Below, in pieces: positions 1,006-1,581 of a stretch of 31,848 bases of DNA. The position numbers and the translations under genes are program-made. Position 1 is the first letter of the stretch, and the number at the start of each line of letters is the position of its first letter. The DNA is taken from the IMG/VR virus record IMGVR_UViG_3300009506_000189, positions 1 through 31,848 of that record. One strand, 5' to 3'. The notes under the pieces were generated by a model. The model saw only the letters and a program-made list of their open reading frames with translations. It did not search any database and had not been told where the DNA came from. Source of the DNA: a virus.

Positions 1006-1581
1006 TCAGTCCTCGTTCTGGTTATCGTAGACATCAGCCACGAGCTCGAAATCGTGATCGGTGAGCTCGCCATATTCCGCGAGCTCGAAGGACATCACCG
1101 AGTTCAAGTCGATCGAATTCGGATCATCGGAGAGGCCGAGCGCGTTGCCGAGCTCGTGACGGAGCACGCCGCCCACGGTTTCCCGGTGGTATTCCAGGTC
1201 GGCCGAGATCGTGATCGTCCCGTAGAGGAGCCGCCCGTCTCTCTCGGCGTACTCGAACAGCCCCCCCGGATCGGTTCCGTCCTCGTTCTCCGGAAGATAG
1301 CCGAAGAAAACCGGGATAACTCCGTGAGTGTCTTCCGGGTAGTCCGCACCGGGCTCAACATGGACCACCACGCGCGTTACACCATCGCGCGACATCTCGT
1401 CATTCCACCAGGCGCAAGCCTGCTCAACTTCGAGCTCGAGCTCGGGCTCGGGAACGATCGCCCAGGGCAGGTATTCGGGCTTCGCGTACATGCCCTCGTC
1501 GAGGGCCTCGAGCCGCCGGCATTCGCAGTCCGAGCCCGACAAAATTGACATTGCCACCAAAACCAGGAATAGGCGGGACAT
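1006..1581 (-). CDS. Secreted metzincin-like protein with substituted zinc ligands
   Basis: 191 residues starting at the ATG at 1581 behind a GGGAGGGAG ribosome site. Residues 1-16 form a hydrophobic signal segment, with Cys at 19 and 21, so it is exported or possibly lipidated. The body resembles small matrixin-type metalloproteases. A candidate active helix RHELGNALGLSD (141-152) is followed by a Met-turn SVMS (161-164). Canonical HExxHxxGxxH would require His at 146 and 152; here they are Asn (AAC) and Asp (GAT), each one base from a His codon. Glu143 is retained. The protein is probably an inactive or altered metzincin. It lies between small unknown genes, downstream of a transglycosylase and a nucleotidyltransferase. 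Confidence 0.75.
   Translation of the reverse strand: MSRLFLVLVAMSILSGSDCECRRLEALDEGMYAKPEYLPWAIVPEPELELEVEQACAWWNDEMSRDGVTRVVVHVEPGADYPEDTHGVIPVFFGYLPENEDGTDPGGLFEYAERDGRLLYGTITISADLEYHRETVGGVLRHELGNALGLSDDPNSIDLNSVMSFELAEYGELTDHDFELVADVYDNQNED
1010..1129 (-). repeat. Direct repeat copy B (120 bp)
   Basis: Counterpart of 760-879, encoding the C-terminal 40 residues of the metzincin-like protein. Both copies are read in the same frame and end in GAGGAC just before the next start codon, so the unit carries its own translation-coupling signal. Confidence 0.85.

Follow-up and report, generated by a model that had tools for sequence, protein, structure and literature searches.

A phage-encoded metzincin-fold protein carrying a recurrent Asn-Asp pair at the second and third zinc-ligand positions

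Introduction

What kind of active site does a metzincin-like protein have when its central motif reads HExxN...D rather than HExxH...H? Metzincins are conventionally recognized by their HExxHxxGxxH/D zinc site; Asn coordinates zinc poorly, and a zincin deprived of its second His is normally inactive. An initial annotation of IMG/VR record IMGVR_UViG_3300009506_000189, all 31,848 nucleotides of which constitute the window analyzed here, pointed to such a protein and listed a pseudoenzyme, a binding protein, or altered metal use as its possible meaning. Here we establish the setting and the predicted fold of this protein, follow its ligand set through cellular and viral homologues, and weigh the readings that these data allow.

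Results

Genomic setting of the metzincin-fold gene

The window is a linear 31.8-kb viral contig and corresponds to a fragment of a Mu-like myovirus, with Mu-like head genes (portal, S49-type head protease, and gpT-like major head protein) and a contractile tail (tail sheath, tape measure, and baseplate); the contig also encodes RecT and a RuvC-like resolvase. A compact operon of mostly overlapping genes occupies the left end of the minus strand, in the order SLT transglycosylase, nucleotidyltransferase, 67-residue ORF, metzincin-fold ORF, Cys-rich ORF, and a gene that runs off the contig (Table 1). The nucleotidyltransferase is a phage-encoded protein resembling sugar-phosphate nucleotidyltransferases (NTP_transferase and NTP_transf_3). 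The metzincin-fold ORF overlaps its neighbors in this operon, and its limits, strand, and motif are exactly those first annotated. Two ATG codons could start it; ATG 1581 is favored over ATG 1602, which would give 198 residues, because a Shine-Dalgarno sequence lies just upstream of the former, and residue numbers used here follow the resulting 191-residue reading. The AlphaFold model (see below) predicts a helix over the putative N-terminal export signal.

Table 1. Features of the left-end operon and of the metzincin-fold gene (window coordinates).
Feature	Position	Strand	Remarks
SLT transglycosylase-like protein, exported (signal sequence)	2423-2932	minus	upstream operon neighbor
Nucleotidyltransferase	1785-2426	minus	upstream operon neighbor
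CDS, metzincin-fold protein, 191 aa	1006-1581	minus	ATG 1581 with Shine-Dalgarno AGGGAGGGAG
Putative N-terminal export signal, hydrophobic	1522-1581	minus	MSRLFLVLVAMSILSGSDCE; from the translation, by eye; without a clear lipobox
Active-site helix and turn HELGNALGLSD	1126-1158	minus	H142, E143, N146, G149, D152; helix here in the model
CAC codon of His142	1156-1158	minus	read from sequence
AAC codon of Asn146, replacing the second zinc-ligand His	1144-1146	minus	read from sequence
GAT codon of Asp152, third ligand position	1126-1128	minus	read from sequence
Met-turn SVMS (M163)	1090-1101	minus	aligned with the Met-turn of homologues
ATG codon of M163	1093-1095	minus	read from sequence
3' tail of the metzincin gene from the D152 codon, copy 1 of a 124-nt direct repeat	1006-1129	minus	
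Tail copy 2	756-879	minus	90% identical to copy 1
Cys-rich ORF, 83 aa	753-1004	minus	start MHPMCETCEFYGDDEAYDEVCLFCAF, fused to tail copy 2

The window protein is predicted to adopt a metzincin fold

Searches with the window protein returned no match in Pfam, PHROG, or NCBIfam; it falls below the Pfam gathering cut-off for Peptidase_M10 (matrixin, PF00413), has no sequence-level match to Peptidase M7 (snapalysin) in Pfam or NCBIfam, and gave nothing meaningful in a phmmer search of the PDB. More sensitive profiles did recognize it. Among the 617 six-frame ORFs of the window, ORF 1006-1581 was the sole significant match to a profile of 31 planctomycete matrixin homologues (E 2.8e-7), from which the window protein had been left out and for which 30 of the 31 sequences were gathered without reference to the motif, and also the sole significant match to a mixed metzincin seed profile (E 8.7e-11). 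The profile check proposed with the annotation was thus negative for the Pfam M10 and M7 families and positive for these two profiles.

The AlphaFold model of the window protein (alignment A2) reached a pLDDT of 71 and a pTM of 0.72 and is partly dependent on the profile evidence, as the alignment contained metzincin homologues. Its top PDB match in Foldseek is snapalysin (1kuh; E 1.4e-5, probability 1.00, TM-score normalized to snapalysin 0.69), a similarity that is structural only, followed by karilysin and then MMP-1 and other MMPs; the five matches with E ≤ 0.001 are metzincins without exception. Helix A, the sheet, the active-site helix, and the C-terminal helix of the metzincin fold are all present in the model; the sequence has the Gly turn with an Asp at the third ligand position (G149 and D152) and the Met-turn (SVMS), but only the first of the two His ligands of HExxH, with HELGN providing Asn as the second. 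Given the matrixin profile match and a model that matches snapalysin, karilysin, and MMPs, we conclude that the window protein has a predicted metzincin fold, in agreement with the identity first proposed for it; the general base (E143), the Gly turn, and the Met-turn had likewise been read correctly. That the motif is a mere chance resemblance in an unrelated protein would agree with the empty Pfam, PHROG, NCBIfam, and PDB sequence searches, but this is scarcely credible for an ORF singled out by both profiles and modeled with a fold that retrieves only metzincins at E ≤ 0.001.

Asn146, not Asp152, is the anomalous ligand

The annotation had treated both the second and the third ligand as substituted. 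In snapalysin, Asp is the third ligand and the second His is kept; since Asp serves there as a ligand, we rejected Asp152 as a lost one. Asp is established as a third zinc ligand in the Asp-zincin motif HExxHxxGxxD (PMC3890501). Only Asn146 is therefore aberrant, the Asp at position 152 being ordinary among some metzincins; of the original claim, the anomaly of the Asn stands and the loss at the Asp does not. Its predicted metzincin fold and its five motif residues (H, E, N, G, and D) place the window protein in an HExxNxxGxxD class of matrixin-like proteins.

The H-E-N-D ligand set recurs in distant genomes

Both relatives with the identical ligands (H-E-N-D) and relatives with intact ones (H-E-H-H), for which the annotation had advised a search, were found among matrixin homologues. 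The pattern HE.GN..G..D retrieved 72 stretches from 84,980 species genomes, about 38 of which proved on inspection to be unambiguously matrixin-like, with a Met-turn or its equivalent following downstream, and the remainder mostly antisense or chance matches; because H, E, and D were fixed in these broad pattern scans, they are unable to show pairing of N with D. Holders of H-E-N-D are found in Planctomycetes, in giant proteins of Rhodobacteraceae, in filamentous cyanobacteria, and in a marine and freshwater group comprising Actinomarina, Synechococcus, other Actinomycetota, and two viral contigs (L005 and L019). The planctomycete N-D members score 39 to 47 bits against Pfam Peptidase_M10 (cut-off 24), and a profile of planctomycete N-D homologues matches MMP-1 with an E of 8e-17. 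First pattern scans of viral sequences gave mostly chance or antisense matches, with L005 and L019 as the only genuine N-D proteins; no close relative of the window protein was found in IMG/VR or INPHARED, and no solved structure with an HExxN...D motif occurs among the profile-search matches listed. A search of the open-access literature found no description of HEXXN-type motif strings.

Several of these groups show further variation. Eight Rhodobacteraceae loci and their relatives encode very large proteins (open frames of up to at least 2666 residues) with an HEMGN..D domain, and three related proteins in this family carry HExGH..H instead; a relaxed Rhodobacteraceae pattern with Ala for Gly also pulled in an unrelated HEIANVLGL stretch, which we take to be adenine deaminase and which was discarded. 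In the marine and freshwater clade, represented by ten members with both viral contigs included, Gln, Phe, or Leu frequently replaces the Met of the Met-turn and precedes Glu-Asp-Pro (SVQEDP and SVFEDP), which alters the active site further. Family- and order-wide searches for this clade yielded few members, and a separate profile search, not constrained by the motif, added one, which keeps H, E, N, and D and has Ala in place of Gly. Two loci encode M6-like peptidases with HEFGN..GL.D, and the Asn change may thus also occur in an M6-like family. Finally, three planctomycete matrixin homologues have Glu, Asn, or Pro as third ligand and keep the second His.

Asn and Asp occur as a strict pair of multiple origin

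To read the ligand positions in sequences not selected for the motif, we searched 119 planctomycete genomes with a profile (A1) and read 30 loci, which comprise 16 H-E-H-G-H, 13 H-E-N-G-D, and one H-E-H-G-E, from a profile built mainly from N-D rows and with five of the 119 genomes previously known to hold N-D. In none of the 30 does N occur without D or D without N, and all of them keep the first His and the Glu. Co-occurrence of N and D is perfect (Fisher p = 8e-9, kinship ignored); only the two ligand columns split the H-H and N-D classes completely, and no third residue follows them. Elsewhere, the genuine N-type metzincins among the matches listed from 397 Rhodobacteraceae genomes are all N..D, and scanning viral sequences for N combined with a third-ligand His turned up no genuine metzincin, whereas N..D gave two.

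In a planctomycete tree with the ligand columns masked, N and D switch jointly four times, and a single planctomycete N-D clade is rejected (p-AU 0.01). Nor do the N-D rows form one clade across phyla (p-AU 7e-13), where six switches are needed, although the starred branches alone force only two. These trees reject the idea that the swap arose just once. The substitution in ORF 1006-1581 is real but not peculiar to this gene, as cellular matrixin homologues that keep the first His and the Glu show the same strict pair independently. The window protein itself sits on a very long branch of the cross-phylum tree with unsupported placement and, because it also lacks close relatives among those found, its N-D pair may differ in function from the planctomycete one.

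A duplicated 3' tail and an adjoining Cys-rich ORF

The 3' end of the metzincin gene, encoding the Met-turn and the last helix, is repeated 250 nt downstream, where the second copy ends a Cys-rich ORF whose ATG lies 1 nt past the metzincin stop. In this ORF, a CETC...CLFC pattern precedes the tail copy; no relatives of it were found in viral contigs. The repeat ends in GAGGA, which coincides in both copies with the expected ribosome site of the following gene. Either insertion of a cassette at the 3' end of the gene together with a replacement tail, or a partial duplication, would explain the repeat. Of 120 coding nucleotides, 11 differ between the copies, with one amino acid change (dN 0.02, dS 0.56), and this near absence of amino acid change shows that the tail evolved under constraint, be it in the metzincin or in the Cys-rich protein. 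The same ratio is compatible with a nonfunctional second copy, as the divergence could predate a recent recombination between intact relatives.

Discussion

Independent recurrence, the strict pairing of N with D, and retention of the first His and the Glu argue for a functional site over decay, and the recurrent paired swap with its Glu kept points to a remodeled site that is probably metal binding. We favor, at roughly even chances, an exported metzincin-fold peptidase with a His142-Asn146-Asp152 metal site and Glu143 as general base. In such a protein, Asn and Asp would jointly have taken the places of the second and third His of a matrixin-type site, the three side chains would hold a divalent metal, plausibly one more oxygen-preferring than zinc, and Glu143 would activate water, allowing the protein to cleave peptides in an extracytoplasmic compartment of the infected cell. 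The fold, the sequence class, the joint occurrence of N and D, and the kept first His and Glu are observed; metal binding, catalysis, and an envelope role are inferred. Its export signal and the presence of a lytic transglycosylase in the same operon suggest that the target may lie in the cell envelope.

The main rival, which we consider the less probable of the two though a serious contender, is a pseudoenzyme, in which an Asn-Asp hydrogen bond replaces the metal and keeps the cleft folded to bind a peptide, a host protein, or an envelope component uncut. The ligand set is unsuited to zinc, a direct N-D contact could also explain the paired change, and one domain of a planctomycete giant protein is more degraded still, with both the first His and the third ligand changed (REIGNLLGLGQ). 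A pure binder, however, needs neither the first His nor the Glu, yet both are kept in all 14 N-D rows gathered without the motif, so that in a set not pattern-selected for these residues a working site fits better than a dead one. According to PMC3650047, HExxH sites are frequently substituted, and the substituted forms may be conserved, but the replacements mostly enriched there at the second His are Arg, Lys, or Leu rather than a fixed Asn.

Two other readings carry less weight than either the metal site or the pseudoenzyme. An ordinary zinc peptidase might tolerate the Asn, holding zinc through His142, Asp152, and either Asn146 or a water and running the same reaction at weaker affinity; fold and Met-turn resemble those of snapalysin and MMPs, and the Asp third ligand is that of snapalysin, but the absence of N with a His third ligand, both in the motif-free set and in the viral scan, is left unexplained, and we regard this reading as improbable. 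In favor of decay of a dead protease gene, or of histidines misread in sequencing or assembly, each substituted codon is, as first annotated, a single base from His (AAC versus CAC and GAT versus CAT). The frame is nevertheless intact inside an overlapping operon, nearly every difference between the tail copies is synonymous (dN/dS about 0.04), and the identical N and D pair occurs in dozens of independent genomes; we rejected decay and sequencing error on this recurrence and give them almost no credence. The outcomes listed in the initial annotation still include the likely answer.

Its recurrence as a pair in unrelated bacteria makes HExxN...D look like a genuine active-site variant, as yet undescribed, rather than damage. 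Our broader proposal, more tentative than that for the window protein itself, is that HExxNxxGxxD constitutes a distinct, repeatedly evolved metzincin metal site, serving an oxygen-loving metal or another reaction, in several phyla and in phages. Pfam scores the planctomycete N-D proteins as M10 matrixins. A paired swap that arose on more than one occasion with the first His and the base fixed means either a second workable metal chemistry or selected upkeep of a zinc-free cleft, and natural H-H and N-D paralogues within one family make this question directly testable.

Among known systems, snapalysin (MEROPS M7, the small neutral protease of Streptomyces; 1kuh) shares with the window protein a compact exported metzincin fold, the Asp third ligand, and the Met-turn, but keeps the second His where the window protein has Asn, and the two lack a sequence-level family match. 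The matrixins (M10; MMP-1 and karilysin) have the same arrangement of elements, starting at helix A and ending with the C-terminal LTxxDxxxVxxxY helix, and carry HExxHxxGxxH; the window protein itself falls below the Pfam M10 cut-off, whereas the planctomycete N-D homologues lie above it. Zincins with substituted HExxH sites (CLCA and others) have in common with the N-D proteins a conserved, nonrandom, several-times-arisen loss of active-site residues, but with Arg, Lys, and Leu as enriched second-His replacements and, in the available part of that source, no paired Asn and Asp change (PMC3650047). Finally, the phage-derived exported metzincin Mtz of Listeria, which has a TIMP-like partner, Tim, targets the cell envelope and facilitates lysis (PMC8235301). 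Likened by description and not by sequence, Mtz and the window protein are both exported metzincins of phage origin adjoining a small gene, the window protein differing in its N-D ligands and in a neighbor that is a Cys-rich ORF with its own copy of the metzincin tail rather than a TIMP-like lipoprotein.
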